From Kiloniella sp. EL199 (GTDB lineage Bacteria > Pseudomonadota > Alphaproteobacteria > Kiloniellales > Kiloniellaceae): DNA of 64,000 bases. The DNA lies in NCBI RefSeq assembly GCF_900313065.1, contig NZ_OMPU01000010.1, forward strand, positions 868,001 to 932,000, read 5' to 3'. A program made the position numbers and the translations under genes. Below, in pieces: positions 6,867 to 32,249 of the stretch. Each line of letters opens with the position of its first letter. The first letter of the stretch is position 1. The notes beneath the pieces were generated by a model. The model saw only the letters and a program-made list of their open reading frames with translations, was not told where the DNA came from and searched no databases.

Positions 6867-6980
6867 ATTAAATCCCCTGATGTATGTTTAGAATAATATT
6901 ATTTATTAACAGAGAGCTAAACAAGCTGTTTGCATTTCATAACGAATGCAGTTGTCATTTTCCATGTATTATTCCATAGG

Positions 6981-7009
6981 CCTCATGTTTTCACACATGG
7001 GGCTTTTTT
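6981..7009 (+). terminator. Intrinsic terminator before portal fragment
   Basis: Stem CCTCATGT/ACATGGGG with a TTTCAC loop and a following run of six T residues. It ends 12 bases before the ATG of the portal-gene fragment, matching the terminator that precedes the intact portal gene at 10919. Confidence 0.7.
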
Positions 7010-7020
7010 ATGAGAAAAAT

Positions 7021-7096
7021 ATGCAATTAGCAGAGACGATTGTTAATAGAAAGAGCGCGTTACAGCAAGAATGCCAGAAGTATGACAAGTTGGGAA
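7021..7096 (+). pseudogene. 5' fragment of a portal gene
   Basis: Starts MQLAETIVNRKSALQQECQK and continues YDKLGK, which aligns with the first 25 residues of the intact portal protein at 10919 (MELAEKVINRQAALANERSK). The match stops abruptly at the 3' end of the convergent TM2 gene. It is therefore the remnant of a second portal gene that was cut by the accessory block. The two copies differ at many codons, so they come from two related phages or from an old duplication. Confidence 0.75.
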
Positions 7097-9125: not shown

Positions 9126-9423
9126 GAGTTAATCCTGTCAGATGAAAGTATACTTACATTATGAACAAGTGGTTTGTATTTGGACAAGATTGGGGCGGTA
9201 GAATAGTACGTATTTTGAATTTGATTAATGATAGAAAACAAAAGACCCGATTTAATTGTGAGTTATGTTAGAGTGTTGATGCTTCGAGTTCAAATAATTT
9301 TCAATAATATTTTAAAGGTAGGGAAAGAGGGCAGCCGTCGGAAAAGACAACATATTTTTATGATACTTTTTGTTCTTATGATTTTGGCATTAATATTTTT
9401 ATGGGAAAATGCGTCTTCTCATA
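9126..9423. other. AT-rich intergenic region
   Basis: Upstream of the secreted protein and of glycine-rich gene B. A plus-strand frame containing a hydrophobic run (MILFVLMILALIFLWEN) near 9358-9410 lacks a clear ribosome site and reads through the terminator, so I do not call it a gene. Promoters for the divergent genes are expected here but none is distinct. Confidence 0.4.
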
Positions 9424-9452
9424 AAAAAGCTCCACTGATGTGGGGCTTTTTT
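9424..9452 (+). terminator. Intrinsic terminator before glycine-rich gene B
   Basis: Arms AAAAAGCTCCAC and GTGGGGCTTTTT with a four-base loop and flanking A and T runs, so it could work in both directions. It lies 41 bases upstream of the start at 9493. Confidence 0.75.
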
Positions 9453-9492
9453 GTGTTGGGCAGGAGTTGTTGAGGCTGAAAAGGAGATTAGG

Positions 9493-10732: not shown

Positions 10733-10781
10733 TTGTTTGAGCATGGAGATAACGGTATATTCGTTCTTGGATAAATAGGTC
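10733..10781 (+). promoter_or_regulatory. Promoter with conserved leader, site 1 (upstream of portal)
   Basis: TTGTTT at 10733-10738, a 17-base spacer and TATATT at 10756-10761 form a sigma70-type promoter. Directly after it the leader TCGTTCTTGGATAAATAGGT (10761-10780) matches the leader at 24588-24608 in 20 of 21 bases. A terminator follows about 70 bases on, then the portal gene. The repeated promoter plus leader suggests a common control, such as antitermination or a protein binding site. Confidence 0.6.
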
Positions 10782-10852
10782 CTCTGAAAGACATTATCTA
10801 TTTGCAACTTGATCGCTTTGTAGAGATTAAAAATCATGACTGAGAAGTCTTG

Positions 10853-10888
10853 AACCCCTTGCATTTAATGCGGGGGGTTTTGTTTTTT
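10853..10888 (+). terminator. Intrinsic terminator before the portal gene
   Basis: A long stem (AACCCC...GGGGTT, extended by TTGCAT/ATGCGG) with a short TTA loop, followed by a T-rich tract with six consecutive T residues. It lies between the leader promoter and the portal start at 10919, so portal transcription from this promoter needs read-through. Confidence 0.75.
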
Positions 10889-10918
10889 GGGGATCCGATA
10901 TAATGAACTGGAGATCTT

Positions 10919-12598
10919 ATGGAGCTTGCTGAAAAGGTAATTAATCGTCAGGCCGCATTGGCAAATGAACGATCCAAGTTTGACAAGATCTGGATGGAAA
11001 CGGCTGAACGTCTTGACCCCTTTGGATCAATTCTGGAGGGCAGACGTGGTGATATGTCAAAGATGTTCAGTTCCCGCCCTCTGCAGGATCTGGCACGTTT
11101 TTCTGCGGCAATCGAGAGTTTGCTTATTCCCCGGGGATCAATTTGGCACGGTCTGGAACCTGTTGATGATGATCTGCGAGAGAGCGATGAAATTCAGGCG
11201 TGGGCAGAACAGCGCACCAAAAAGCTCTTTTCCGTTCGATATATGGCAAGATCTGGCTTCGTTTCAAATACGCAGCGAATGTTTCGGTCTTTGGGGTGTT
11301 ATGGCAATCAGGTGCTGATGACTGAAGAAGTTCTGTCCAGAGGCCCCGGGGGCGAGGATTTGCCACCTATTCGATATCGTATGATTCCGATTATTGAGTG
11401 CTTTCTGGCGACTACGGCCTGGGGGCAGATTGATACCTTTTACCGGGTTTATAAACTTACATTACGGCAAATCATTGATGAATTCGGTCTGGAGGCTTTA
11501 CCAGAGTTTTTGACTTCCCGATTGGACAAGCCTGATTTACTGGAAGAAAAGTTTGAAATTATCCATGCCATAGACACGACCCTGAGTGGGGATACGCAAA
11601 CTTTACTTCCCTGGCCGTCTGTTCATGTTCTTAAAGGACATCATCATGTCTTGAGACAGTCCGGCTATTATGAATTCCCCATTCACGCGTCATCATTTGT
11701 AGAGAGTGATGGCGAAGCCTATGGATGGGGACCGGGCATGATGGCCTTGCCGGATATCAAACAGCTCAATGTGATGAACAAAACCACGATTGCGGCGGCT
11801 GAACAGGCGGTATCACCTGCTTTTGCAACGGTTCAGAAACTCAAACGCAGATTGAACCTGAGCGCCAATGCGATCAATCCGGATCTGGTCACCGATGATG
11901 GGCGTTTAAAAATTCAACCCATCGTGACGGGGGCACGACCAGATATCGGGGAGCAGCTAATCGCCAAGAAACAGATGGATATCAGTGCGAATTTTTACGG
12001 TGATCTGTGGCAAATTCTTGTGAACAAGCCTGATATGACAGCCTATGAAGCAGCTTTGCGGGCACAGGAAAAGAACGAGTTGATTGGCCCGCCCTTTGCC
12101 AAGCAGGAAGAAATGCTGGCGTCTATGGTAATGCGTGAAAATGCAATCCTTGAACGTCAGGCGGAAGATGGCATTATTGATCTGCCGCCGCGGCCTGATG
12201 GACTGGAGGGGAAAAGCCTGACCCTGAAATTTACCAGCCCTATGGCGAAACTACGTCGTGCGGCGGAAGATGTAGGTATTCAACGTACGCTGGAAACCGC
12301 GGCACAACAAGCACAGTTCGACCCGACAATTATGGATAATTTTGACCACGACCGGATTATTCGTGCCCGTGCGGATATCAATGGGATGCCCGCGGATTTG
12401 ATGCGTCCTGTGGAAGAGGTTCAGGCAAGCCGACAAGCAAAAATCCAAGCCGAGCAACAGCAGTTAATGGCGGCGCAGCAGGCACAGGATGTCGATACTG
12501 CGGGGAAAGCCTTGCCAATTATGGAAGCACTTGGTGCTGCTGGCCTTGGTTTCGAAGGGGAGATTGATCCCAATCAAACACCGAAAGGCGATGTTTAA
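10919..12598 (+). CDS. Portal (head-to-tail connector) protein
   Basis: 559 residues, the normal size for podovirus connectors of the T7 gp8/BPP-1 type. The N-terminus (WMETAERLDPFGS) and the segment ESLLIPRGSIWHGLEP match the family, and the middle has the conserved GEAYGWGPGMMALPDIKQLN followed by a basic, helical wing. The C-terminal 60 residues are Gln/Ala-rich. Twelve copies form the ring at the capsid vertex through which DNA is pumped and the tail attaches. ATG 10919 has GGAG upstream. The next gene starts four bases after the stop. A 5' fragment of a second portal gene lies at 7021. Confidence 0.93.
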   Translation: MELAEKVINRQAALANERSKFDKIWMETAERLDPFGSILEGRRGDMSKMFSSRPLQDLARFSAAIESLLIPRGSIWHGLEPVDDDLRESDEIQAWAEQRTKKLFSVRYMARSGFVSNTQRMFRSLGCYGNQVLMTEEVLSRGPGGEDLPPIRYRMIPIIECFLATTAWGQIDTFYRVYKLTLRQIIDEFGLEALPEFLTSRLDKPDLLEEKFEIIHAIDTTLSGDTQTLLPWPSVHVLKGHHHVLRQSGYYEFPIHASSFVESDGEAYGWGPGMMALPDIKQLNVMNKTTIAAAEQAVSPAFATVQKLKRRLNLSANAINPDLVTDDGRLKIQPIVTGARPDIGEQLIAKKQMDISANFYGDLWQILVNKPDMTAYEAALRAQEKNELIGPPFAKQEEMLASMVMRENAILERQAEDGIIDLPPRPDGLEGKSLTLKFTSPMAKLRRAAEDVGIQRTLETAAQQAQFDPTIMDNFDHDRIIRARADINGMPADLMRPVEEVQASRQAKIQAEQQQLMAAQQAQDVDTAGKALPIMEALGAAGLGFEGEIDPNQTPKGDV

Positions 12599-12601
12599 AC
12601 C

Positions 12602-12883
12602 ATGCTTAAAGGGTGGCCTTTTCCCCTCAAAAAACAACATGAGCTCGTCGAGGCTTACAGCCGGCTTTTTGCATCATCTGATGGTCAGATTGTTTTGGCA
12701 GATATTCTTGATCAGGCGCAGGCTTTTGAAGCAACGCCCCCTGATGGACCATCAATATTCAATGACGGTAAACGCGCTGTCGCGTTCGATATTCTTCGGA
12801 AAGCTTCTGTTAGTTCTGACTTAAGAGCAGAGTTGGCAAAGGCGGCTTACTTAAAACAAGAGGAAGATACGCAATATGAGTGA
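12602..12883 (+). CDS. Bbp19-like phage protein
   Basis: 93 residues. The pattern YSRLFASSDGQIVLADIL followed by FNDGKRAVAFDILRKA is that of the small protein placed between portal and scaffold in BPP-1-like podoviruses (Bbp19 family). Its exact role is not established. It overlaps the scaffold gene by 8 bases. Highly helical, soluble, no signal peptide. Confidence 0.75.
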   Translation: MLKGWPFPLKKQHELVEAYSRLFASSDGQIVLADILDQAQAFEATPPDGPSIFNDGKRAVAFDILRKASVSSDLRAELAKAAYLKQEEDTQYE

Positions 12884-13724
12884 TGATCACGGTTTAAGCG
12901 GTTCAGCCGTTTCAGGCTCTGGCTTCTCTGGCCCTACGTTTTCAGGTCATGAGTTTTCGGGACCTGAAAGTCCCGGTTATTCGCAACCTTCCCCATATCA
13001 ACCCGCATCGCAAGATAGCGGGTTTTTTCATGCCGAAAATTCTGGTGGGGGTGAAGGTTTGAATAGGCCATCAGCGGTGGATGCCGAAGCTTCGTCTAAT
13101 GATGATTGGCAAGAGGGCAAAACTCAGCCCGCCGATCAGGCGACGGAGAGGGATGGGTATCTTAAGTTACCATCAGATGGCGCAAGTGAAGATGAAATTG
13201 ATGCCTTTTATGCGGCGCTGGGTGTTCCCGAAACGCCGGATGGCTATGAGTTGCAGGTTCCGGAAGAACTCGGTTCTCAGCATAGCGAGGAAGACTGGAA
13301 AGCTTATACCGGAGCCATCAGCGAACTTTCACACGCGCTGGGACTTTCGCCAGAACAGGCGCAGGCGCTGGCCGATATGGATTTACAAGCCAAAACACAA
13401 TCCATGGAGAACCTGGAACGTGAACAGGAACAATATTTAACGCAACAAATTGAGGAAACCACAGAAACGCTTCGCGAAGAGTGGGGATCTAAAATGGATG
13501 TGAATGTCAGAACCGCCAATCGTGCCTTGAAGGCATTGGGTGGTTCTGAACTTGAGGGGGTGTTGTCTGAAGCCGGGGTTCTAAACGACCCCGTTGTCAT
13601 TCGCGCCTTTCATAAAGCTGGCCTCTCCCTGGTAGAGGACAGCAGCCCCGGCGGTGCCGGTGCAACCAGACGCAACAAATCTGCTGCGGAAATTCTCTAC
13701 CCATCATCTACTAAGGAAGGCTGA
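12876..13724 (+). CDS. Capsid scaffolding protein
   Basis: 282 residues, acidic. The N-terminal 80 residues are low-complexity with repeated SG(S/P)xFSG units, followed by a region LPSDGASEDEIDAFYAALGV and PETPDGYEL that is typical of phage scaffold proteins, then a long coiled coil rich in Gln and Glu (about residues 170-215). The C-terminus ends SAAEILYPSS, the usual capsid-contacting end of such scaffolds. It lies directly before the major capsid gene, as expected. The ILYP motif recurs in the accessory proteins at 5934 and 10399. Confidence 0.85.
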   Translation: MSDDHGLSGSAVSGSGFSGPTFSGHEFSGPESPGYSQPSPYQPASQDSGFFHAENSGGGEGLNRPSAVDAEASSNDDWQEGKTQPADQATERDGYLKLPSDGASEDEIDAFYAALGVPETPDGYELQVPEELGSQHSEEDWKAYTGAISELSHALGLSPEQAQALADMDLQAKTQSMENLEREQEQYLTQQIEETTETLREEWGSKMDVNVRTANRALKALGGSELEGVLSEAGVLNDPVVIRAFHKAGLSLVEDSSPGGAGATRRNKSAAEILYPSSTKEG

Positions 13725-13726
13725 TT

Positions 13727-14746
13727 ATGGCAACACTTGGAAATACCTTTGTCGATCTTATCGATATCTACAAACAAACTGATCCGAATGGTTCTACGGC
13801 AACCATTATCGAGCTTCTCAAACAGCAAAATCCTATTCTGGATGATGCGATTGCAATGGAGTGTAATAAAGGATCGGAACATCTACATACCATTCGTACC
13901 GGTTTACCGTCTGTTTCCTGGGGCGCGTTGTATCAGGGAATCACACAGTCAAAAGCCAAACAACAGCAGGTCACGGATACAACGGGCTATCTGGAAGCAC
14001 TGGCAACCATTGATGAACGTGTTCTGAATCTGTCCAAAAATGAAGCTGGTGTTCGCCTTAACGAAGCCATGGCGTTCATGGAATCAATGAATCAGGAAGC
14101 GGCTTCGGGTCTGTTCTATCATGATACAGCTTCAACCCCGGAAAAGTTCAAAGGGCTTTCTGCACGATTTAATGCCATTGGTGGCGGGGGTGCCGGTGAA
14201 CAGGTCATTGATGCAGGTGGAACCGGATCGGATAACACATCTATCTGGTTTGTAACCTGGGGTGATCGCCATTGTCATCTGCTTTATCCGCAAGGTACTA
14301 AAGCTGGCCTGCAACGAGATGATATGGGCCGCCAACGTGTTTTGGATGAAAACAACAATCCATATTATGTGAAGGAAGAAAAGTTCACATGGCATCTTGG
14401 GCTGGCCGTGAAAGACTGGCGCTATGTATCTCGTGTTGCAAATATTGATGTATCCCAAATGCAGGCGGGTAATGTGAAGCTCTATGATTTCATGCGTAAA
14501 GCTTATTACAAGCTGCAAAGTCGTATTCGTCGCGGTGATGCGGCAGGTGGTCGTCAGGTTATCTATTGTAATCGTGATGTGCTTGAAGCTCTGGATGCAT
14601 TGGCCACCAATGCCGGGGCCGGGGATAATTTTGTACGCTTGAAAGACAGTGAGCTGGAAGGGCAGGAAGTTCTGACCTATCGCGGTATTCCAATTCGTGA
14701 AACCGATGCGTTGCTCAATACCGAAGCACGCGTTCTGTCTGCTTAA
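13727..14746 (+). CDS. Major capsid protein
   Basis: 339 residues, HK97-fold shell protein of the BPP-1/GP7 type. Diagnostic segments are NTFVDLIDIYKQTDPNG at the N-terminus, IRTGLPSVSWGALYQGI, NEAMAFMESMNQEAASGLFY, GLSARFN, and SIWFVTWGD. It starts two bases after the scaffold stop with AAGGAAGG as ribosome site. The gene is intact and of normal length, so head assembly may still be possible. It should be the most abundant virion product. Confidence 0.93.
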   Translation: MATLGNTFVDLIDIYKQTDPNGSTATIIELLKQQNPILDDAIAMECNKGSEHLHTIRTGLPSVSWGALYQGITQSKAKQQQVTDTTGYLEALATIDERVLNLSKNEAGVRLNEAMAFMESMNQEAASGLFYHDTASTPEKFKGLSARFNAIGGGGAGEQVIDAGGTGSDNTSIWFVTWGDRHCHLLYPQGTKAGLQRDDMGRQRVLDENNNPYYVKEEKFTWHLGLAVKDWRYVSRVANIDVSQMQAGNVKLYDFMRKAYYKLQSRIRRGDAAGGRQVIYCNRDVLEALDALATNAGAGDNFVRLKDSELEGQEVLTYRGIPIRETDALLNTEARVLSA

Positions 14747-14787
14747 TCCCTATAAAATTCAGGACCGAATTTAGAGAGAGATTTAAT

Positions 14788-15210
14788 ATGATTCATAGTA
14801 AACAACTCACCTTATCTGATCAGCAGGCAATTACCAGCACTGCTGCGTCAACCAATATTCTTGATTTGGGTACAACCGGGACTGTTATCGGTGCCTCTGC
14901 GGCGCTGCCAAGTAACCCCGGTGATGGGACTGCGGTGCCGTTGAATGTGCAGGTGACAGAGGGTTTTAACAACCTGACATCACTTAAAATCGCGATTGAA
15001 GTGGACAGCACGACAAGCTTCTCTTCCCCACGCGAAGTACTGTCTCAGTCTATTGTGCAGGCTGATCTTGTTGCAGGCAGACAGACGTCTTTCCACATTT
15101 TGCCAAAAGGTCTGGATGAACGTTATATGCGTCTGCGCTATACGGTGACGGGTTCTAACCCGACCAATGGCAAGATTTCTGCGGCAATTGTCGCCGGAGT
15201 GCAGAGTTAA
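14788..15210 (+). CDS. Capsid cement/decoration protein, Bbp16-like
   Basis: 140 residues, beta-rich, with no signal peptide. Sequence pattern (LDLGTTG, AIEVDSTTSFSSPREVL, LPKGLDERYMRLRYTVTG) matches the small protein encoded after the major capsid gene in BPP-1-like phages, which in BPP-1 (Bbp16) acts as a jelly-roll cement on the capsid surface. The assignment rests on recalled family pattern and gene order. The stop overlaps the next start by one base. Confidence 0.78.
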   Translation: MIHSKQLTLSDQQAITSTAASTNILDLGTTGTVIGASAALPSNPGDGTAVPLNVQVTEGFNNLTSLKIAIEVDSTTSFSSPREVLSQSIVQADLVAGRQTSFHILPKGLDERYMRLRYTVTGSNPTNGKISAAIVAGVQS

Positions 15211-15434
15211 TGGCGTTGCGGGCAAAAGCCGCGAAAGGAACGACAGCCAAGAGATCGCGTGGTTCTGCCAAAGCAGTGTCTGTGACAAGTCCTGCTACTG
15301 TATCAAAAGCAGACGAGTTGAAGGTACGCGCGATTGCTTTGGGGTATTACGGCGCCCAGCTCCGGGAAGAGGGGGATACTTTTGAGCTAAGAGACCCTGA
15401 ACATTTTTCATCCAGTTGGATGGAAAAGATCTGA
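15210..15434 (+). CDS. Small basic phage protein
   Basis: 74 residues. The first 35 are Lys/Ala/Arg-rich and likely disordered; the rest reads RAIALGYYGAQLREEGDTFE and ends with FSSSWMEKI, a pattern common in small proteins next to capsid genes of podoviruses. It is coupled to the cement gene by an ATG-TAA overlap and is followed by a terminator. The exact role is unknown; a DNA- or capsid-binding minor protein is plausible. Confidence 0.6.
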   Translation: MALRAKAAKGTTAKRSRGSAKAVSVTSPATVSKADELKVRAIALGYYGAQLREEGDTFELRDPEHFSSSWMEKI

Positions 15435-15470
15435 TGTCATCAAGGATTGAGTTCCTTTGATGTTTGAGAA

Positions 15471-15505
15471 AGCGGGAGATCAGAAAACTGGTCTCCCGCT
15501 TTTGT
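15471..15505 (+). terminator. Intrinsic terminator after the capsid genes
   Basis: Nine-base perfect stem AGCGGGAGA/TCTCCCGCT with a 12-base loop and a TTTTGT tail. It separates the head genes from the tail genes. Confidence 0.8.
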
Positions 15506-15536
15506 ATTATCCCATAACTACAGGTCAGGAAAACAG

Positions 15537-16115
15537 ATGAGCAGCAAAGTTGAAATCTGTCGGGATGCTTTGCAGATCCTGGGTGATAAATCCATTGTTT
15601 CCTTGGATGAAAACAGCAAGGAAGCGCGTCAATGCAAGATCGCCTATCCCAGAGCAGTCGAAACCGTTTTGCGTGCCTATCCCTGGTCGTGCGCTATTCG
15701 TCGGGTGAAACTGGCTGCATCCGCTGAGGCATCAGCCTTTGGTGAATGGAAACGATATCGACGCCCGGTTGATGATATTCAGGTTTTGCCTATCACCACA
15801 ACAGGGGAAGCCAATGGCCTGCCCGTGACATATCAACTGGAAGGGCGATACATCCTGTGTCATCAGTCCGCACCGCTTTATTACCGCTATATCAGTAGTG
15901 AAGTGGAACCGTCTGACATGCCACCGGACTTGCGTCGTGTTGTGGCGGCTCAACTGGCTGTGAGGCTGGCAGAGGTTTTAACCGGGTCACAAACCAAACT
16001 GAATATGGCCCTTGGCCTCTATCGGAATGATCTGGCACTGGCCAAGTCCAATGACATGATGGAAGACGGTGTGAGTGATATGGTGTCTTCGTCCTGGGTG
16101 GAGGCGCGAAACTGA
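15537..16115 (+). CDS. Tail tubular protein A-like adaptor
   Basis: 192 residues. The start SSKVEICRDALQILGDKSI and the following YPRAVETVLRAYPWSCAIRR motif are characteristic of T7 gp11-type tail tubular A proteins, which form the ring between portal and nozzle. A later YYRYIS motif and helical C-terminus also agree. It overlaps the nozzle gene by one base (TGATG), so the two are translated together. Intact and of normal length. Confidence 0.88.
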   Translation: MSSKVEICRDALQILGDKSIVSLDENSKEARQCKIAYPRAVETVLRAYPWSCAIRRVKLAASAEASAFGEWKRYRRPVDDIQVLPITTTGEANGLPVTYQLEGRYILCHQSAPLYYRYISSEVEPSDMPPDLRRVVAAQLAVRLAEVLTGSQTKLNMALGLYRNDLALAKSNDMMEDGVSDMVSSSWVEARN

Positions 16116-17878
16116 TGCCACCAAGAACCCTTCAGGCCAGCTTTATTCGCGGGGAAATCACCCCCCGATTACATGGACGCGAAGATACGCAGCTCTACCA
16201 GACAGGCTTGGCCCTGTGTGAGAACTGGATTGTGTTACCCCATGGTGGCATGACGCGCCGTCCGGGGACACGGTTTGTGGCAAAGGCGAAACACGCCGAT
16301 AAACAGTGCCGTCTTATTTCGTTCGAATACTCAACAGAAGACGCCTATATTCTGGAAATCGGTGATCTTTACATGCGGTTTTACCGTGATTTCGGACAAA
16401 TCGAAAAAGACGATGCTCCTTATGAGATAACCACACCTTACAAGGAAGAAGAGTTGTTTGATCTGGTCTTTACCCAGACGGAAAACAGCCTGTGGATTGT
16501 GCACAAGGATCACCCGCCCAAAGAATTAAAACGCAACGATCATGCCGACTGGTCTCTGGCGGATATTACCTTTACGTCAAAGCCGGCAGAATGGAAGGCC
16601 GGGAACTATCCCAGACGCTGTTCCTTTTATCAGCAGCGATCTATCTTTGCTTCGCCACCTGATCAACCGCAAACCATCTGGACGTCGAAAACATCCAACG
16701 AGAAAAATTTCACTTTAGGCACCAATGCCGACGATGCCTTCAAGGCCACGATCAAGGCGGGGCAGGTCAACCACATTCAATGGATGGTCGAGGGACGTGC
16801 CCTAATGATGGGCACATCCGGGGCAACAAGAACATTGAGCGGATCGTCTGCCAATGAAGCCCTGACCGTGACTTCGGTGATCAATCGCCGTCATACGACC
16901 GAAGGATCAGCCGCTATTCCACCGATCCAGAAGGGGGAAGTGGCTCTCTTTTTAAGTCGGAACAGAAAACGGTTGCACGAGTTTGTCTTTTCGTTTGAGC
17001 GCGACAGCTTTATTGCGCCTGACCAGACCTTTTTATCCCAGCATATTACGGGTACCGGGATCAAGGATATGGATATGGTCAACGACCCTGATTCCATTAT
17101 CTGGATGGTGCGGGATGATGGACAACTGGTTGGCGTTACCTATGAAAAATCACAGGAAGTTGTCGCCTTTCATCGCCATAAACTGGGCGGATCAACCGAT
17201 GACCATGATTGGGGGGAAGTTGAGACCGTTGCTGTAACCTATGAAGCCAAACGGGAAGTTCTGTGGCTGTCGGTGAAGCGCAAAGTCAACGGCGAGGTCG
17301 TGCGTCATATCGAGTTTATGGAAGCCGGGTTTGACGATGGTCTGGATAAAAAAGATGCCTTCTTTGTGGATTGTGGCGGAACCTATGAAGGGGATGCCGC
17401 AAACACCATTAACGGTTTCGATCATCTGGTGGGCGAAGAGGTGGATATCCTGCACGACGGCAAGGTATCGCCGCGATCAATCGTGACAAGTGATGGGAAG
17501 GTATCGCTAAAGAATAACCGTACAGGTTTGAAGATTACGGCCGGCTTGCCTTACCAATCGGTCGTACAGCCCTTGTCCCCGATCGTCGCGCTGCAAAATG
17601 GGACTGGTAGAGGCAAGAAAAAACGGGTTGTTTCCATGGGTGTGGATGTCATGAACACGGGAACAATCGAAGCTGGTGATACGCTGGCAGATACCCAAAC
17701 GCATATCTTTCGCGATGGTTCGACACCCTTTGGGCAGTCCCCGGATCTCTATACGGGGTATCTGGAAATTGATCCGGAAAACGGCTTTAGCGACAAGGCA
17801 CAAATTTTTATCCGCGCAAGACAACCACTCCCGGCAACAATCAGGTCACTGATCACAGAAGTACAGTCAGAGGGGTAG
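16115..17878 (+). CDS. Tail nozzle protein (tail tubular B-like)
   Basis: 587 residues, beta-rich. The N-terminus, LQASFIRGEITPRLHGREDT and then ENWIVLPHGGMTRRPGTRFV, is typical of the nozzle proteins of BPP-1-like and T7-like short tails, as is MRFYRD further on. Six copies form the tube end through which DNA leaves. The gene is coupled to the upstream adaptor. Its stop is followed by a shift to AT-rich DNA at 17.9 kb, where an accessory gene has been placed. Confidence 0.88.
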   Translation: MPPRTLQASFIRGEITPRLHGREDTQLYQTGLALCENWIVLPHGGMTRRPGTRFVAKAKHADKQCRLISFEYSTEDAYILEIGDLYMRFYRDFGQIEKDDAPYEITTPYKEEELFDLVFTQTENSLWIVHKDHPPKELKRNDHADWSLADITFTSKPAEWKAGNYPRRCSFYQQRSIFASPPDQPQTIWTSKTSNEKNFTLGTNADDAFKATIKAGQVNHIQWMVEGRALMMGTSGATRTLSGSSANEALTVTSVINRRHTTEGSAAIPPIQKGEVALFLSRNRKRLHEFVFSFERDSFIAPDQTFLSQHITGTGIKDMDMVNDPDSIIWMVRDDGQLVGVTYEKSQEVVAFHRHKLGGSTDDHDWGEVETVAVTYEAKREVLWLSVKRKVNGEVVRHIEFMEAGFDDGLDKKDAFFVDCGGTYEGDAANTINGFDHLVGEEVDILHDGKVSPRSIVTSDGKVSLKNNRTGLKITAGLPYQSVVQPLSPIVALQNGTGRGKKKRVVSMGVDVMNTGTIEAGDTLADTQTHIFRDGSTPFGQSPDLYTGYLEIDPENGFSDKAQIFIRARQPLPATIRSLITEVQSEG

Positions 17879-17927
17879 TTCCTTCTCACGTTTTGCTTTT
17901 ATCGGGGCGTTATTATTGAGGCATAAA

Positions 17928-19136
17928 ATGGAAAACCTTCGTATTATAAAAGACTTTACTGGTTCATCGCAGAAACGCTCCCAAAAAGCGCCTGAAACAG
18001 TTGATGAACTTCTAAGACGTATTGATCAACTGACTGAAGGTGCAACAACTAATTTCTATAAGGCATATTCCGAGATTGCTTTAGTTCTTGATGAAAAACC
18101 TGAAATATTGGGGATAGATCGAAATTCTGATGCCTATGAAAAAACGAAAACATGGTTTGAACGGGCTGTAGAAATTAATAGTAATGATCCTCGAAGTTCA
18201 GCAAATAAATTCATACGCGCAGTTTCTAAGTATGGATTGCTTTATTCAGGAAAGTCACTTGTCAATAAAGATGGTAAAGATCGCCTTGCTGATACAACCA
18301 ATATCATTGGAAGTAATGTTATTGGTTATATCCTTGATCAAAAGACAGTACCAAACATCAGCGAAATTATTAATGCAGAAATTGATGGCGCCTTAAAGCA
18401 GGGAGGACAAGATTTGGCCGGTTGGGGAGGTGCGTTTTATTTTTGGGACCATAAGCTAAAATCAGGCGAAACAATTGGCGAAACAATAAAGAAAAATCCC
18501 GAACAGCTAGAAAAATTTTTGGCAATTAATGCGGCTGCGACCCGTTACACAATGGGATCTGAGTGGGATGAAGACGATTATGGAGAGTTTTTTGAGGGGA
18601 TTTGGTTCGGCATGAATGCACCGGTTCCTAGTAGTATTCAAGATGAAATCACTTGGAGAGTAATAACAAAGGACTATATCGGCAATCCTGACAGAGTTGG
18701 TGAATGGACTTATAATGAGAAGAGGAGCCAATGGGGAAAACCTGCGGGATTGAGAGAGTCTAGAGCCGTAAAGTTAACACCTACCTCACAAGAAGTTACA
18801 GAACTTAGCTTAAGAAGGCAGGCTCGTCTTAAACATCAAAACATCGATTTTGATAATATAGATGTGCTTGGAAATCGCGATAATTCAGACAACGTTGCTC
18901 CTGTTAATAGGAAGGAAAATTTACTGGACCAATTCTTCCCTGATAATGTTTTGCCTGGACATGATGATTTTGAGTTTTGGTCTGGGAAAAAGAGTAATTT
19001 ACATCAGAGAGAACAAGAAAGCATAAATCAGTTCGATAGCGCCAAAGAAAAAGAAAGTTTAGGGCTTTTAAATGGTCTGCCTAGGAACTCTTTGATGTCT
19101 TCTCAATTAAGTAAGCCATCAAAGTTTATTCAATGA
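17928..19136 (+). CDS. AT-rich protein of unknown function, possible virion cargo
   Basis: 402 residues from ATG 17928 (GAGG upstream). No signal peptide or membrane segment. The N-terminus is basic (DFTGSSQKRSQKAPE), the middle is a predicted globular helical domain with SKYGLLYSGKSLVNKDG and WGGAFYFWDHKL, and the last 80 residues are Asn/Asp/Ser-rich. The DNA is clearly more AT-rich than the nozzle gene before it. It takes a place in the tail module where BPP-1-like phages encode internal proteins, and its 3' end overlaps by seven bases a convergent membrane-protein gene. A carried effector with a membrane partner is an inference only. Confidence 0.5.
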   Translation: MENLRIIKDFTGSSQKRSQKAPETVDELLRRIDQLTEGATTNFYKAYSEIALVLDEKPEILGIDRNSDAYEKTKTWFERAVEINSNDPRSSANKFIRAVSKYGLLYSGKSLVNKDGKDRLADTTNIIGSNVIGYILDQKTVPNISEIINAEIDGALKQGGQDLAGWGGAFYFWDHKLKSGETIGETIKKNPEQLEKFLAINAAATRYTMGSEWDEDDYGEFFEGIWFGMNAPVPSSIQDEITWRVITKDYIGNPDRVGEWTYNEKRSQWGKPAGLRESRAVKLTPTSQEVTELSLRRQARLKHQNIDFDNIDVLGNRDNSDNVAPVNRKENLLDQFFPDNVLPGHDDFEFWSGKKSNLHQREQESINQFDSAKEKESLGLLNGLPRNSLMSSQLSKPSKFIQ

Positions 19137-19741
19137 CATTTATTTTGGTCTTTGAAAATAAGATAGCTGCTCAGGGATACGGGAGTTATTGCTAAAACGC
19201 CACTACCTACCGAAAAAAGACAAAACAGGAAATAAGTATAATCTTCCAAGTGTCGTGCTGTCGCGATGTCATGGTTTTCTTCTACTGTTTCCAAAAGAAC
19301 AGGCGGGTACAGTTCAGATAGTGCGTCATAGCAAAAAATAATCGTAAGTATGAACCACATGACAGATGTAAATAATGTTGTATATCTGAGGGAATATATA
19401 AAGTTAGGTGGTAAATCTAACTTGTTTTTCAAAGTCTTGAAATAGCTATCCAGCTTTTGTCTTTTTATCAGGTAAAAAGGAATTGTGATCGTCAAAAGTA
19501 GGGCGATTATGAGGATAGAGATCAATACTGTTGATAAAAATATTCCCCAATATTTTCTGTATATATAAATATCGGGGGGCGTGTCCCAGCTATAGTACAT
19601 TGTGAAATCAGATGGTTTTGCAAACACTAGGGATATGCACAGGAGTACACAGAAGATGGTTGCAGAGACGCAGGCGAGTGTACTGTACGCCAAGCAACGT
19701 TTTTTGAATTCAGCTTCGATTTTATCGATTAGAGAATGCAT
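19130..19741 (-). CDS. Four-helix membrane protein
   Basis: 203 residues from ATG 19741. Hydrophobic segments lie near residues 20-42, 66-92, 122-140 and 168-196, separated by hydrophilic loops; the loop YYSWDTPPDIYIY is probably outside. No family is recognised. A longer version from TTG 20185 would overlap the plus-strand gene at 19929 and is rejected. It lies tail to tail with 17928-19136, both AT-rich, inside a tail operon of opposite direction. An immunity or exclusion function for the inner membrane is conceivable. Confidence 0.55.
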   Translation of the reverse strand: MHSLIDKIEAEFKKRCLAYSTLACVSATIFCVLLCISLVFAKPSDFTMYYSWDTPPDIYIYRKYWGIFLSTVLISILIIALLLTITIPFYLIKRQKLDSYFKTLKNKLDLPPNFIYSLRYTTLFTSVMWFILTIIFCYDALSELYPPVLLETVEENHDIATARHLEDYTYFLFCLFSVGSGVLAITPVSLSSYLIFKDQNKCH

Positions 19742-19928
19742 AGAAAACAGCACCTGTTTACTTAATACACGTAATGGTAGCTGGTTTGAGGCCTTTGAAC
19801 AATTAAATAAAGTGATGTCGACTAAGTGGCGGTGATGTTGCGTCGTTTGGAGAGTTTCAAACATGTTATGAATATATTGCTGATGCTGATCAAGTTTTGA
19901 CAAGAAATCTAAAATAAAGGGTAAAGCG

Positions 19929-20372
19929 ATGGGGTTTTTAAAAAAACTGTTTAAAGGTGTTAAAAAAGTTTTGAAGGGTGCGGCCCCTGCTATTGGTGCG
20001 CTGGCAGGGATTGGCGGTTTGTCGTCGACGGCTGGTTTACTCGGGGCGGGTGGGGCACTTTTTAACGGCTTTTCCGAACGCAAACGCGCAAAAAAACAGG
20101 CTAAAATGGCAAGGCGGTTTGCTGCGCAGGAGGCCGCGATCAGTCGACGCAATACACAACGTTTGGCGGGGCAACAGCGTGCCAATTTTGCAGCTGCGGG
20201 TTTGAAAATTGAAGGTAGTCCGGCTCTGTTGATTGAAGAGACAGAAAAGTTGGGGGCGCAGGAAGTTGATAATATTCTCTACGCCGGAAATCAGCAGGCC
20301 AAAGCTCATAAGCGTGCCGGAAACAACGCCATGATCGGTGGTTTTCTGAATGCGGGACCAAGCTTCTTATAG
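19929..20372 (+). CDS. Internal virion/core protein (T7 gp14-like)
   Basis: 147 residues. An amphipathic basic N-terminus (FLKKLFKGVKKVLKG) leads into a Gly/Ala-rich hydrophobic segment, then a long charged helix (RKRAKKQAKMARRFAAQEAA) and a conserved AAAGLKIEGSPALLIEETEK-like segment. This order is typical of small internal virion proteins that are ejected first and form a pore in the outer membrane (T7 gp14 and its relatives). Base composition matches the core phage genes. Confidence 0.75.
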   Translation: MGFLKKLFKGVKKVLKGAAPAIGALAGIGGLSSTAGLLGAGGALFNGFSERKRAKKQAKMARRFAAQEAAISRRNTQRLAGQQRANFAAAGLKIEGSPALLIEETEKLGAQEVDNILYAGNQQAKAHKRAGNNAMIGGFLNAGPSFL

Positions 20373-20483
20373 ATAATGATATAGGAGATAGAGATCTAAT
20401 CCCGTTATATCTTATGGTTGAATAAAGTGGTGCTTTCTGAGTTAATTGGCTATCTGGGTTTGATAAAAAAATGAGATAGTAAA

Positions 20484-21062
20484 ATGTTTCTTACCGCTAT
20501 TCAGTCACGTTTTAAGGAAATAGAATTCAAGCGGGTATTGAAAGCTTTCGTTATTTCTATACTGGTTCTTTTTTTTCTGACCTTTGCGTATGAATTTATT
20601 GATAAACTTTATTATGACTTCACTTTGATAGATGAAGCGAACCCGCAAAAGGTAACTCTACTTCTGGACAGAGCTCTGGAGTTGATCATAAAGTTTTCGC
20701 TTTATTTAACTCTCTATCAAATCCCGTCAAATTTGCCTGTTCTCCTAGGGGGATTGGTCCTGAACTTTTTTAAAGTGAAGCGGATCATTTGGACATATCT
20801 GCTATTTGTTATCTGCTTCATTTCATATGATGTTTATAACCTTTTCAATTTTATGTATCCGCGTGAAGGTACATCAACCTTTGGGTATAGCACGAGGGAT
20901 TGCGTGGCTATTGTTGATTATGTTCGAACAGCTTGCGGGTACGAAATCTGGGCAAAAGGTTTTTTTGTGGATTTAGCTGAGGGTTTGATTGGCGCAGCTG
21001 TTTATCTAAGATGCTATCAAAGAGGAAGCAAAGAGAATGTCGGACAAGTGGCAATTAAATGA
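20484..21062 (+). CDS. Multi-helix membrane protein in the tail module
   Basis: 192 residues with about four hydrophobic segments (near residues 20-40, 65-85, 100-120 and 160-180) and basic cytoplasmic ends. No domain recognised. AT-rich. Its 3' end overlaps the start of the next gene by 26 bases, so the two are strongly coupled. The pairing of a membrane protein with a soluble partner repeats what is seen at 17.9-19.7 kb. Confidence 0.5.
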   Translation: MFLTAIQSRFKEIEFKRVLKAFVISILVLFFLTFAYEFIDKLYYDFTLIDEANPQKVTLLLDRALELIIKFSLYLTLYQIPSNLPVLLGGLVLNFFKVKRIIWTYLLFVICFISYDVYNLFNFMYPREGTSTFGYSTRDCVAIVDYVRTACGYEIWAKGFFVDLAEGLIGAAVYLRCYQRGSKENVGQVAIK

Positions 21063-21867
21063 GGATGGCACGGCAACTTTTTTCACGGATGAATATGGCC
21101 CTGTCACAATTGATCAAGATAACTTTTTTGATACGTTTGGTGACGATATCATTGATGTTAAAAAGAGCCATGAGGATTATCACGAATACGGCTTTTTACA
21201 TGACCTTGGTATTTCAACTAAAGATATTGATCATGAAGTTGTATCCGCAGCTTTGGCAACCTTTGCAACTCCGTTAGGACCCAAGTATGGAAGTTTTGCT
21301 GGGCCAGGGTTCGTAAAGCATTCCTCGGCTCATTCCGGTGTTGTGACAAATTATACAACAAACTTGCACCTTCTTGATCCAGGGTTGGTACAACGGTCTA
21401 TCGTCGTGAAAGATGGAAATTACCATATTCGTACTGTGGGTATAGGCACAGGTAATCTGAGAGAGAAAAATTTAAAATACGCAGAGGATGTTTGGGGATT
21501 TGCGGATAAAAGAATAAAGAATTGGATTGAAACTTTCCAAGAAAGTGACAGTTTACGAATGGTTCCGACACACAAAAAAATAATTGGCGATGAAATAGAA
21601 AAATCAGTACTTCAAGACCGCCTATCCGGTGTTCTCGGCTCTGATGAGGCTGTGTCTGAGAAAAGCATTGATCGTAAGAATTCATTATATTCTCATACTC
21701 TTTTAAAAGATCCAGAGGATGCCATTGATACAGATGAAACCTTGTCAGAGCGTATGCGACCAGGTTCTATGAAATCTCAAATAGATAATTTCGATACTGG
21801 TATAGAAAACAATGTGGCCGGGTTCTTGAGTAACTTTTCAAACAACGGACTGTTACGGGCACAGTGA
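21037..21867 (+). CDS. AT-rich soluble protein of unknown function, possible virion cargo
   Basis: 276 residues. The N-terminal 60 residues are very acidic (DEYGPVTIDQDNFFDTFGDD). A middle domain has VSAALATFATPLGPKYGSFA and HIRTVGIGTGNLREKN; the C-terminal 80 residues look disordered. No signal peptide, membrane helix or recognised family. It starts within the upstream membrane-protein gene. Located between two internal virion genes, in the same kind of slot as 17928-19136. Role unknown. Confidence 0.5.
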   Translation: MSDKWQLNEDGTATFFTDEYGPVTIDQDNFFDTFGDDIIDVKKSHEDYHEYGFLHDLGISTKDIDHEVVSAALATFATPLGPKYGSFAGPGFVKHSSAHSGVVTNYTTNLHLLDPGLVQRSIVVKDGNYHIRTVGIGTGNLREKNLKYAEDVWGFADKRIKNWIETFQESDSLRMVPTHKKIIGDEIEKSVLQDRLSGVLGSDEAVSEKSIDRKNSLYSHTLLKDPEDAIDTDETLSERMRPGSMKSQIDNFDTGIENNVAGFLSNFSNNGLLRAQ

Positions 21868-21928
21868 ATGCCAATGATTTAATATCTCTGTAAGCATCGC
21901 TCCCCCTATCTCTTTAGTTTTTTCTTTG

Positions 21929-21960
21929 GATCCAAGCAGAATTGCTGGATCTATTTTTTT
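21929..21960 (+). terminator. Intrinsic terminator before internal virion gene
   Basis: Arms GATCCAAGCA and TGCTGGATC with a GAAT loop and one bulged A, followed by TATTTTTTT. It ends 43 bases before the start at 22003. Confidence 0.75.
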
Positions 21961-22002
21961 TGCCCAAATTTCAGTGGGTTCAAGCTTAGAAGGTTATCGA
22001 AA

Positions 22003-24540
22003 ATGCCAAATATCCCTGATAGTCGAGCCCCAGCTACAGTTCGATTTGAATTACCAGATGAAAACATTGGTGCTGTTACGAAAGGCCTTTCCAGGCTTGC
22101 AAAAGCTGTTCATGAAAAAGATAAAAAGAAGAAAGAGGAAGAAAAAGCACGCAAACAAGAACCTGCTACTGCCGATGTTGATCCTGCTGAGAGCCCACAA
22201 GACGAAAGTGTCATCGAAGGAGTGAAATCTGATCTGAGGGACGCATCGGAATACATGCAGGAAAAATTGCGTGATATTGATCTGTACGAAGAAATGTCAG
22301 AATTTGCGTCTGGTCTTTATCAGGGGATCAAGGAGCAGCTTGGCTTTACAGACAGTTCGCCATCAAAAATTGATGAAGAAATCAATTCGGCCTATGCGAA
22401 TATAAAAACTGACCTGATGACACGGCAGAATTTCAAAGGTGAAGATGAGGCCGCCGCCTTTAGTCAGCGGTTTGACGAAAAGGCTCGTTTTGATCAGCAG
22501 TCTCTAAGGGCTTTTAAACAGGAAATCATCAAAGAGAAAATTCATACGACCGTAGATCGCCATATTGAAAAGTATGGTTCCGGTGTTGTTGGTAATCCTG
22601 ATACCCTGACGGATGCCATTATCGTTATTGATAGTAATATCAATGATCTTGCACCGGGCATAGGGCGTGAGGCTGCGGTTGAAAAAAGCAGAGAAGCACG
22701 TAGAAGTTTGTTATCCTTTGCGCTACAGGGACACGCGAAACAAGGGAACTATGACGCATTACAATCCTTGTTGGACGGCGTTGACCCGGCAACAGGAGCA
22801 GCGATTAATATTGATGAGTACGTGAACCGCGAAGATAAGGGGTATTTTCAATCCATTGCCTCAAAAGGAATTGTTCGCAATGAGGCCACAAGACTTCTGG
22901 ATGATATTTATTCTGCGGGGCTTTCCGAAGAAGATTTGCTTAGAACGCTGGAATATTATCCTGATCAGTTAGTGGGCGAAGAGGCGGCTCTTCTCTGGCG
23001 AAATGAACGACGCCTTCAAGCTAAAGAACAAAGAGAGAGAGTAAAAGGGCAGCGTTATTTTGCGTGGAATTTCCTTGTCGAAAACAAAGGAAATATCGAT
23101 ATTAATGATCTTTCGCTGGATTTAAGTCAATCAGATCGAAATCAGATCGCAGAATATGCTGATCAGATAATCGCCGGGGATAACGATTTTTCTCCTGATG
23201 TTAAGTTCAGACGTGAGCAAGGTTCACGTGCCTTATACGAACTTAAAGCGTTGCAAGTCGCTGATCCTGAAGCTTTTCCAAATTATGATTTATCTCATTA
23301 CTTTAAGGATTTATCACCAAAGCAAATCAACGAAGTTATAGCTATGCAGCAAAGTGAGCCGGATCCTCGTTTAGCTGCCAATTTTAAATTGCGTGAACGC
23401 TTGGCGCAAAGAGCTTGGGAAAGCATTACTGGAAGTGATGGACAAGGAGAGCTTGATCGCCATGCTTTTGTCGATTTCCGAATTCGCCTTGATGAACGGA
23501 TTGACGAATATAACGGCACGCAAAAAGAACCTGCTGGACCTTTTGAAATAGAGCAAATCGTCAATGACATGGTCGCCAATGGTGAGGTGGTTCAGCCTGT
23601 GCAAGGGAATGAGGTTATTCGCGGCGAAGAGGAGCGTGATGTACTTGTCGGTGATGGGGACCCTGTTTTTGCCGAGGATGTGATTAAGGGCACTCATGAA
23701 TGGTACGAATTCTTAGCAGATCTTAGATCTTCTAACCCTGATGAGTTTTCTAAATTACCGATAAAAGATCAAAAGGCATCAACAGCTTATTGGATGCATA
23801 ATAGGGGAGGGACGACTGGTACTTCTGTTACTGCAATTGCACAGACGAAAGAGCATCGTCAACAATCATTAATTGCTGGTAATAACGTTTTATATCAAGA
23901 AGATGTTCTTTCTTGGGAGAAAGACGTTACAGAGGAGTTAATTCGTAATACTGGTATCGATAAAGGTTTGGCCACTGATATTGCTACTGTAATTTCATTT
24001 ACTCCTGTTGGTTCAGCTTTGGATATCGGAGAAGGGCTTTTAAATGCGTCAGTTGCTTTTGAACAAGGCGATATTGAAAAAGGATTAGGTTATCTGGGTG
24101 AGGCAGGAATGTCTGCTTTGAAAATAAATAAATTGAAAAAATTGTTTGTTAAAAGCGGTGTAAAAGCTCAACGCATAATTTCAGACGCATTACCTGATTT
24201 AGCGGCGAGAAAGATGTTTAAAGCTTTATCAAAACAAGGTCTATCTTCTGGGGTTGTGAAGGATAGTATTTTCAGAGCATTCAGAAACGGCTTTAATCCG
24301 GGAGAGGCTCTTGCCTATGGTGTGTTTTCTGCCAACGCTAAGAAGGTAATAGATTCCGCATTTCAAGCATTTAAGGGTGAGATTCTTTCAGAGAATAAAC
24401 AAAGAATAATTAGAGAAAAAATAGAATCTGTTCTTTATCGTGAAGGTAGTAAATTTTTAAAAGATGTTTCTGAGAAAGCCAAAAGTAAAGCTGTTAAAAC
24501 ACTAATAGATGAATGGTTTGAAAATTCAAAGTTACAGTAA
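22003..24540 (+). CDS. Large internal virion protein with a divergent C-terminal domain
   Basis: 845 residues, largely helical. After a short N-terminal segment comes a Lys/Glu-rich coiled region (HEKDKKKKEEEKARKQE, about residues 35-55), then a long helical body with many Glu, Arg and Gln residues, as in the ejected core proteins of podoviruses (T7 gp15/gp16 position). From about residue 590 the DNA becomes more AT-rich and the protein changes: it contains a hydrophobic stretch VISFTPVGSALDIGEGLLNA and then a basic, Lys/Ser-rich end. The stretch resembles the hydrophobic pre-toxin segments of polymorphic toxins, but no toxin domain is recognised. It precedes the tail fibre genes. Function in DNA ejection is inferred from size and place. 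Confidence 0.65.
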   Translation: MPNIPDSRAPATVRFELPDENIGAVTKGLSRLAKAVHEKDKKKKEEEKARKQEPATADVDPAESPQDESVIEGVKSDLRDASEYMQEKLRDIDLYEEMSEFASGLYQGIKEQLGFTDSSPSKIDEEINSAYANIKTDLMTRQNFKGEDEAAAFSQRFDEKARFDQQSLRAFKQEIIKEKIHTTVDRHIEKYGSGVVGNPDTLTDAIIVIDSNINDLAPGIGREAAVEKSREARRSLLSFALQGHAKQGNYDALQSLLDGVDPATGAAINIDEYVNREDKGYFQSIASKGIVRNEATRLLDDIYSAGLSEEDLLRTLEYYPDQLVGEEAALLWRNERRLQAKEQRERVKGQRYFAWNFLVENKGNIDINDLSLDLSQSDRNQIAEYADQIIAGDNDFSPDVKFRREQGSRALYELKALQVADPEAFPNYDLSHYFKDLSPKQINEVIAMQQSEPDPRLAANFKLRERLAQRAWESITGSDGQGELDRHAFVDFRIRLDERIDEYNGTQKEPAGPFEIEQIVNDMVANGEVVQPVQGNEVIRGEEERDVLVGDGDPVFAEDVIKGTHEWYEFLADLRSSNPDEFSKLPIKDQKASTAYWMHNRGGTTGTSVTAIAQTKEHRQQSLIAGNNVLYQEDVLSWEKDVTEELIRNTGIDKGLATDIATVISFTPVGSALDIGEGLLNASVAFEQGDIEKGLGYLGEAGMSALKINKLKKLFVKSGVKAQRIISDALPDLAARKMFKALSKQGLSSGVVKDSIFRAFRNGFNPGEALAYGVFSANAKKVIDSAFQAFKGEILSENKQRIIREKIESVLYREGSKFLKDVSEKAKSKAVKTLIDEWFENSKLQ

Positions 24541-24559
24541 TGTTATAACGCGAGATGAA

Positions 24560-24608
24560 TTGTTCGTCTCCGATCCGCCATCTATAATCGTTCTTGGATA
24601 AACAGGTC
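24560..24608 (+). promoter_or_regulatory. Promoter with conserved leader, site 2 (upstream of tail fibre)
   Basis: TTGTTC at 24560-24565, a 17-base spacer and a perfect TATAAT at 24583-24588. The leader that follows, TCGTTCTTGGATAAACAGGT, matches site 1 at 10761 with one change. A terminator begins three bases after the leader, and the tail fibre gene follows at once. Same order as at the portal gene. Confidence 0.65.
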
Positions 24609-24610
24609 TC

Positions 24611-24638
24611 AACCTCTGCTATTTAGTGGAGGTTTTTT
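24611..24638 (+). terminator. Terminator/attenuator overlapping the tail fibre ribosome site
   Basis: Arms AACCTC (24611-24616) and GAGGTT (24629-24634) with a 12-base loop, followed by further T residues. The GGAGG that serves the TTG start at 24640 lies inside the 3' arm, so folding could both stop transcription and hide the ribosome site. Confidence 0.6.
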
Positions 24639-24639
24639 A

Positions 24640-25563
24640 TTGGGAAAATCTGACATGACTATTTCTGCGACACCGCGGAGGGCCTCTTACACCGGGGATG
24701 GCTCTACGGTAACTTTTGCTGTGCCCTTTAAGTTCCTTGCCGATAGCCACTTGAAGGTTGTGGTGACAACCCCAGGCGGAGCTGAAAGCTTTGTAACGCC
24801 TTCGCAAATAAGTGGAGCGGGGGCCGAAAGTGGAGGCTCTATTACGCTTACTAATGCTCCTGCTACGGGGGATACTATCACCGTTCTCGGGGCGACACCG
24901 CTGGAGCAACAAACCGATCTCGCGGTATCAGATGGTATGCCCGCCGATGTTATTGAGACTGCTGTTGATCTTCTTACCATTCAGAATCAGGAACAGGACG
25001 TACAGATTGGTCGGGCGATTAAATTACCCATTGCCTATTCCGGTGACGAGCTGCAGTTCCCGGCTCCGGTGCCCAATGAGGTGCCGTACTACGATGAAAA
25101 CGGTAAGTTGGTGATGTCATCAGTTGGTTTTAGCACCTTGATGTCGACGGTTCAGGATTTGATTAATCTGGCGAATGAAAGTGGTCAGGCACACACTCAT
25201 GATTTTTCGGTTTTAACGGGGACAGATCAGGTTCTTTTGGCCAGTTTATCCCGAATTCTGGGCGTGAGTTATCCGACCACGGTCAATTCCTATGGCAATA
25301 CGACAGATAATCCCGTGATTGATCTGACGAAGACTTTTCTGACCTCAATGACGAATAATGGGAACGGGGTGATTACGGCAGATAAAGCCAATAATAACTC
25401 GGTTGATGTCTGGGTAACAAATAATCAAAGCGCGGGAACACTGGATATTTCCAGCTTTGATTATGTAAAGGGATCTTTCGGTGTGGGTGATGGTGTTATC
25501 ACCATCATGCATATGTCTACGGTAAATGGTGTCGCCCGAGTAGCGCTAGAGGTGCTGGAATGA
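24640..25563 (+). CDS. Tail fibre protein, virion-anchoring N-terminal type
   Basis: 307 residues. Residues from MTISATPRRASYTGDGSTVT onward form the T7 gp17-like N-terminal fibre domain that attaches to the tail, with ITVLGATPLEQQTDL and a QNQEQDVQIGRAI helix typical of that domain. The C-terminal half is a beta-rich stretch without a recognised receptor domain. The TTG start at 24640 has GGAGG seven bases upstream; ATG 24655 is an alternative. It overlaps the next gene (ATGA), so the distal, receptor-binding part is probably the 1175-residue protein that follows. Confidence 0.8.
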   Translation: MGKSDMTISATPRRASYTGDGSTVTFAVPFKFLADSHLKVVVTTPGGAESFVTPSQISGAGAESGGSITLTNAPATGDTITVLGATPLEQQTDLAVSDGMPADVIETAVDLLTIQNQEQDVQIGRAIKLPIAYSGDELQFPAPVPNEVPYYDENGKLVMSSVGFSTLMSTVQDLINLANESGQAHTHDFSVLTGTDQVLLASLSRILGVSYPTTVNSYGNTTDNPVIDLTKTFLTSMTNNGNGVITADKANNNSVDVWVTNNQSAGTLDISSFDYVKGSFGVGDGVITIMHMSTVNGVARVALEVLE

Positions 25564-31318: not shown

Positions 31319-31354
31319 TCTGTTTGCAAACAATGCCAGGGGAAGTATCCGAGG

Positions 31355-32244: not shown

Positions 32245-32249
32245 TATAG

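Follow-up and report, generated by a model that had tools for sequence, protein, structure and literature searches.

A conserved promoter–leader–terminator layout ahead of virion genes in an apparently domesticated podovirus module of Kiloniella

In the Q systems of the lambdoid phages lambda, 21 and 82, as outlined in PMC6606751, a promoter is followed by an intrinsic terminator ahead of the late genes, the initially transcribed region is conserved, and the Q binding element lies between the –35 and –10 hexamers. At the alpB promoter of Pseudomonas aeruginosa a terminator likewise lies just downstream and is read through by a dedicated antiterminator, AlpA, whose binding element is located in the spacer, as sketched in PMC9371919. 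For alphaproteobacteria, the account in PMC11150451 describes GafYZ of the Caulobacter gene transfer agent (GTA), and GafA of the Rhodobacter capsulatus agent (RcGTA), as serving inherited phage-derived clusters by antitermination over the cluster terminators; the GafZ element is a palindrome in the spacer, and GafZ antitermination thus provides a regulatory precedent in an alphaproteobacterial GTA. Here we compare with these systems two promoter–leader–terminator units, S1 and S2, that stand ahead of the portal and tail fibre genes of a podovirus-type structural cluster in Kiloniella sp. EL199. The stretch analysed (hereafter, the window) comprises 64,000 nucleotides of contig NZ_OMPU01000010.1 (positions 868,001 to 932,000 of the forward strand), with the cluster spanning approximately 847–31224 of it. 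The layout is real, conserved and unusual, and it belongs to what looks like a domesticated podovirus module. Unlike the Q and AlpA sites, the spacer is not common to the two units, whereas the leader is; the locus therefore appears similar to the Q, AlpA and GafZ systems in logic without being a member of any of them. It also has two or three units per module, while Q has one.

A preliminary description of this DNA had reported two TTGTTY-17-TATAWT promoters, each followed by a repeated leader and an intrinsic terminator, before the portal and fibre genes, and its coordinates were confirmed (Table 1). It had also held that the leader is conserved beyond the needs of a promoter. Comparison of orthologues bears this out: mean identity of the leader is 0.91 at S1 and 0.92 at S2 versus 0.53 and 0.51 for the respective spacers, while synonymous divergence of the structural genes from those of EL199 runs from 0.41 up to saturation. 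Between S1 and S2 of the same genome mean identity is 0.87 for the leader (range 0.70–1.00), 0.18 for the spacer and 0.22 for the 20 bases that follow. The pattern that is invariant from the –10 onwards across 16 sites reads TATA.TC.....TGG.TA.A..GGT., and the conserved block, which begins directly after the –10 and ends near +14, is sharply delimited. Both sites are present in all eight Kiloniella modules readable at both regions, that is, in 7 of 7 portal-bearing genomes and in module A of the IMG/VR record G058 (genomes and loci carry our index numbers, G and L); module A of G058 is close to the module of G007, so the eight are not fully independent. G007 carries S1 twice. In each of the eight a terminator stands between leader and virion gene at both sites, as had been claimed for the window.

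Table 1. Positions of the regulatory elements and genes discussed, in window coordinates
Feature	Position	Strand	Basis or remark
S1 promoter TTGTTT-17-TATATT	10733..10761	+	–35 10733-10738, –10 10756-10761; letter-by-letter check
S1 common 20-base leader CGTTCTTGGATAAATAGGTC	10762..10781	+	sequence check, genome search, orthologue comparison
S1 intrinsic terminator	10855..10885	+	hairpin 10855-10877, T-tract to 10885
Portal (head-tail connector) gene, ATG 10919	10919..12598	+	PHROGs phrog_332
S2 promoter TTGTTC-17-TATAAT	24560..24588	+	–35 24560-24565, –10 24583-24588; letter-by-letter check
S2 common 20-base leader CGTTCTTGGATAAACAGGTC	24589..24608	+	sequence check, genome search, orthologue comparison
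S2 intrinsic terminator, GGAGG within 3' arm	24613..24638	+	hairpin 24613-24632, T-tract to 24638
Tail fibre gene	24655..25563	+	PHROGs phrog_1640; start ATG 24655, reading frame open from TTG 24640
Strong hairpin with short T-tract between p74 and tail tube genes, inside S1 operon	15472..15507	+	9/9 modules
Terminator ahead of p845	21927..21961	+	by eye in 10/11 p845 copies
Possible further unit before p302: TTGTTC and weak –10, terminator 9429-9454	9370..9454	+	similar in module A of G058
Promoter-like TTGTTT-17-TAAAAT ahead of terminase small subunit, GATGAATTGTT context like S2, without the 20-base leader	745..773	+	aligned leaders
Decayed module B-type unit TTGCAT-17-TGTCAT, terminator 6980-7011, truncated portal start from 7021	6930..7080	+	intact counterpart
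Terminase small subunit	847..1317	+	Pfam PF03592
Terminase large subunit (reading frame from TTG 1369)	1381..2844	+	PHROGs phrog_2
Major capsid protein gene, S1 operon	13727..14746	+	PHROGs phrog_212; 69.7% to Vibrio phage MZH0603
Tail tube A and B genes	15537..17878	+	PHROGs phrog_394, phrog_376
p845, conserved N-terminal and variable C-terminal part	22003..24540	+	genus comparison
Large fibre gene, S2 operon	25560..29087	+	PHROGs phrog_19943, phrog_24898

The repeat is rare. Comparison of the plus strand of the window with itself gave five diagonal bins in which 21-mers matched with no more than one mismatch, among them S1/S2 and two places in a tRNA-adjacent repeat, and 0 of 20 dinucleotide shuffles of the window yielded any such pair. 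The whole-genome search that the preliminary description had called for was run with the 26-mer from the –10 to the leader end: at up to three mismatches it found S1 and S2 and no other site, against none for the reversed control. A loose search of the window with a 15-mer of the leader alone (three mismatches) returned 4 matches versus 2.48 expected, which is not above chance; hence, the argument rests on the repeat being exact, on where it lies and on how well it is conserved. A 15-mer leader scan of viral contigs hit mostly unrelated genes among the matches listed, and the longer A-type pattern occurred in four stretches, all on contigs with Kiloniella modules. A LexA operator has the form GTTC-N7-GTTC; the leader holds one GTTC only, and this candidate was rejected.

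The two terminators differ in how they are kept. The S2 hairpin is nearly invariant in sequence across modules, and the S1 hairpin drifts, with 98.1% of cells paired on six alignable sequences versus 44.7–61.1% when the pairing is slid (G001, G002 and G008, which have other hairpins at the same place, were left out of this count). The gap between –10 and hairpin is 24 nt at S2 and 93 nt at S1. A mechanical scan for promoter, terminator and open reading frame (ORF) over the window and six other loci recovered both S1 and S2 in all three A modules supplied to it, along with the three units of the diverged module B; it also picked sites that look like chance hits, two of which lie in the half of the window that is not phage.

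Module B is found in the G058 record (74.9 kb; L296–L299), where two modules lie approximately 18 kb apart, A beside the topoisomerase gene and B diverged from it. Identity between A and B is 85% for the portal, 94% for the major capsid protein (MCP) and 96% for p110, as if parts had been exchanged. The layout recurs three times in module B, at terminase, portal and fibre: TTGNNN-17-TANNAT, a leader (TTCTACGGAT, TTCCCACGGAT or TCCTCACGGAT) and a terminator, with –10-to-hairpin gaps of 23, 21 and 23 nt. The A and B leaders have GGAT in common 6–7 nt after the –10, and little else. A constant layout combined with a leader specific to the module is what one would expect of modules that each respond to a factor of their own. 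The common switch on virion operons proposed in the preliminary description is a fair suggestion; no regulator for it was found. The B-type pattern occurs in four stretches of the viral contigs, three from Kiloniella and one (L325) inside an unrelated helicase-like gene. The window itself holds a decayed B-type unit (Table 1) with a near-identical intact counterpart in L298; another B-type portal remnant is present in L326 / K. spongiae.

One part of the earlier account did not fare as well. The GGAGG that it had assigned to the fibre gene is indeed part of the S2 terminator arm; that it serves this gene as a Shine-Dalgarno sequence is doubtful. The fibre frame in A modules is open from a TTG (ATG in G001 and G002) to the fibre ATG, which permits this role. 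However, the same upstream ATG in module B is out of frame and meets stops, with the fibre start reading ATG ACT ATT TCT, and most PHROGs fibre profiles and alignments start at ATG 24655; hence the doubt about an overlap of terminator and Shine-Dalgarno sequence. In predicted folds the leader pairs with bases near the Shine-Dalgarno sequence.

Outside the genus the arrangement was not encountered. Portal relatives were found in 28 of the 58 genomes searched, and also at 33 loci of named genomes and at no fewer than 80 in viral contigs. Promoter plus terminator was present in the 300 bases upstream of 0 of 95 portal loci outside Kiloniella, with a same-strand terminator at 3 and an opposite-strand one at 7; the 95 were drawn from 103, six having been omitted by us and two skipped for short upstream sequence. 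The units as an inherited phage trait were rejected on this count. The preliminary description had counted absence of the leader from related phages, together with constitutive read-through, as evidence against a switch: the leader is indeed absent at all 103 loci with up to six mismatches allowed, but within the genus it is not absent. By capsid protein the closest phages are Vibrio phages MZH0603 (69.7%) and 1.185.O (68.8%). Their genes from terminase to tail form one close row, with no terminator-like site from terminase to tail tube (the 1.185.O record is partial); their late operon lacks promoter–terminator gaps, unlike the Kiloniella module. The units, we infer, date from the time at which the late operon was split up. 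These Vibrio phages and the BPP-1/BcepC6B-like podoviruses have the same structural gene set and order and the Bbp19 and Bbp16 families in common with the module; the portals of BcepC6B and BPP-1 are 30.7% and 26.4% identical, respectively, to that of Kiloniella.

The module looks like a domesticated, vertically inherited, GTA-like structural cluster of podovirus type. In 7 of 7 modules that allowed it to be read, the topoisomerase–terminase junction does not vary. G006, with no portal match, has the terminase at the topoisomerase junction before the contig ends, and G005 (77% complete) gave no match. A tRNA-Ser follows the module in EL199 and is found within 2.5 kb in three other genomes; the first 2.35 kb in G002 contain none. 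For the genes of portal, MCP, large terminase subunit and tail tube B, finite dN/dS ranges from 0.007 to 0.060, which indicates strong purifying selection. None of the 29 module ORFs that were compared with PHROGs and/or Pfam is an integrase or replication gene, in a scan that passed over some short ORFs and was not a dedicated search. Our literature search retrieved no publication that deals with a prophage or GTA of Kiloniella, podovirus-type GTAs included, and the Kiloniellales row of a published tabulation gives 0 RcGTA-like clusters (PMC6821227).

The elements, their order and conservation, the leader common within each module and the purifying selection on the genes are established from sequence. 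From them we infer promoter firing, efficient termination, regulated read-through and the existence of a factor. A terminator placed after the promoter makes default early termination with regulated read-through the simplest reading, since an insulator would be expected before the promoter. We put at about one in two the probability that the promoters are on, that transcripts end early by default and that read-through goes via a putative factor acting at the initially transcribed region; antitermination, the mechanism that the preliminary description had named first, is thus our best guess too. S1 and S2 would act as late-type control units for a podovirus-derived structural module that is inherited vertically. 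Each combines a promoter of the housekeeping type with a conserved initially transcribed region (about –6 to +14) and places an intrinsic terminator ahead of the first virion gene. Unaided, RNA polymerase would start and then stop within approximately 45 nt (S2) or 120 nt (S1). A putative module-specific factor might recognise the leader, either in DNA form within the early elongation complex or in the 5' end of the RNA, and carry polymerase past the leader terminator, and in the S1 operon perhaps also past the hairpin before the tail tube genes. That hairpin was counted in all nine modules, with G007 read by eye from joined ends. An extended version, in which this podovirus-derived GTA has a new class of antiterminator that loads at an element just after the –10 instead of in the spacer, with each structural operon gated by its own promoter–terminator unit and each module type given its own leader code, strikes us as unlikely.

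Several observations weigh against early termination with factor-dependent read-through. The known Q, AlpA and GafZ factors have their sites in the spacer, which S1 and S2 do not have in common. A –10-like GATAAA in the leader is placed where a sigma-dependent pause could form, but it scores 4/6, which 53% of random 24-mers reach and which is no better than chance, and one of the eight S1 sites (G008) breaks the hexamer. Covariation in the S1 hairpin is no higher than in the shuffled control (102 of 500). The terminase of module A has a promoter, its elements being present in 6 of 6 aligned leaders of the small subunit gene (G000, G003, G004, G006, G007 and module A of G058; –35 by eye), but lacks the 20-base leader; the consensus fold of this terminase leader pairs promoter bases and so is uninformative on a third terminator. 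A loose regulon pattern searched in two genomes found, beyond S1 and S2, three chance-like places in each, with totals equal to the reversed control. Searches for known antiterminators also count here: the profiles PF06530 and PF03589 matched in 0 of 5 and 0 of 7 genomes, respectively (E. coli matched in both controls), and DUF6456, the GafZ-type domain, matched in 1 of 7 with an E-value of 2.2e–5 at the cut-off, the EL199 genome being without it (the Caulobacter control matched).

Alternatively, the leader could be an operator at the transcription start, with a bound repressor blocking both promoters and the terminators only insulating against upstream read-through. The conserved block lies where start-site operators lie, the difference in leader between modules is what module-specific repressors would produce, and only two leader sites exist per genome. 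A terminator at this place, however, would also stop the promoter's own transcripts, and it is kept there at both sites in 8 of 8 modules; in addition, the leader has no clear palindrome or repeat on inspection, and the module ORFs that were scanned include no recognisable repressor gene. We regard an operator as unlikely, though a serious contender. Variable cassettes upstream of both sites, the further terminators before p302 and p845 and the failure to find an antiterminator fit a leaky insulator, in which terminators stop cargo-gene transcription, a fixed fraction of polymerases from strong local promoters reads through, and the leader sets initiation or escape with no switch involved. The hairpin that separates the capsid region from the tail tube genes could then set the capsid-to-tail ratio; the T7 late terminator, which occupies a comparable place, is said to set such a ratio. 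Yet the terminators follow their promoters, and an insulator leaves unexplained why S1 and S2 share the leader but not the spacer and why A and B leaders differ, so that we find it doubtful.

Two further possibilities assign the conserved bases to other proteins. An activator might drive the operons by binding the conserved bases that precede the –35 (GATGAA at S2 and terminase, TTATACT at S1), the leader being minor. Identity over the 12 bases before the –35 is 0.84 among S1 orthologues and lower, 0.66, at S2, and S2 and the terminase promoter share GATGAATTGTT; within a genome, however, S1 and S2 have only 0.41 of these bases in common versus 0.87 for the leader, which makes an activator very improbable. 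A conserved block of approximately 20 bases ending near the start site, next to T7-like tail and connector genes, also recalls a promoter for a T7-type single-subunit phage RNA polymerase. The leader is always preceded by a 17-spaced –35/–10 pair, though, and PF00940 matched neither the EL199 genome (0 of 1) nor related viral records (0 of 23), a weak negative as the model matched no control either. We dropped this candidate as barely credible.

None of the known antiterminators considered (PF06530, PF03589, DUF6456 and NusG paralogues) fits every module-bearing genome as the factor that would carry polymerase through. PF06530 and PF03589 are two Pfam families of lambdoid Q; a third, PF06323, lay outside the search. 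The likeness to GafYZ is limited by DUF6456 occurring in only 1 of 7 Kiloniella genomes and by the module being podovirus-type, not RcGTA-like. No sequence common to the S1 and S2 spacers was found, unlike the GafZ element, in a comparison that did not look for palindromes as such. A BrrG-type regulator belongs to the Bartonella agent (BaGTA). NusG-family proteins, considered with an RfaH/LoaP-type paralogue and an ops-like site in mind, are present in two copies in G000, G001 and G007 and in one copy in G003 and G004, with none detected in G008. The second NusG-family protein, of approximately 170 residues, is encoded in 3 of 6 Kiloniella genomes (G000:C12:47294-47572, G001:C24 and G007:C44).

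Kiloniella has inherited phage-particle genes, and the layout at the start of their two main blocks suggests that particle production is held back until transcription is allowed through the terminators. If so, a podovirus-type particle cluster inherited genus-wide would join a field known mainly from RcGTA, the Caulobacter agent (CcGTA) and BaGTA, and antitermination-type gating would act at several operons at once. The 20-base leader would then be a handle for fishing out the factor, and the difference between A and B leaders would make factor specificity directly testable. It would also help in reading other clusters in which a terminator follows the promoter before virion genes.

Variable genes occupy two regions of the Kiloniella modules, one separating terminase from portal and the other separating tail tube from fibre. 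In the window, three proteins from the first of these regions (5934-6728, 9493-10398 and 10399-10713; also L047, L050, L052 and L298) have a common C-terminal motif, KVRRAxxLSxL...RRxxFGR, behind variable N-terminal parts. Seven ORFs in the genus loci have this motif, and their products might be particle cargo or ejected proteins. The first approximately 537 residues of p845 are kept across the genus while its C-terminal part differs, which is the pattern of a polymorphic effector. Transposase remnants lie on either side of the module. At 4207-4988 there is an IS4/5-family ORF split between two frames, and at 31296-31595 a short transposase-like ORF with a helix-turn-helix. Finally, a 183-base repeat, 97% identical between its copies at 32063-32245 and 49016-49197, begins in the 3' end of the tRNA-Ser gene, and the copies flank approximately 17 kb of metabolic genes (ABC transporters, aldolase), as would those of a tRNA-integrated island.

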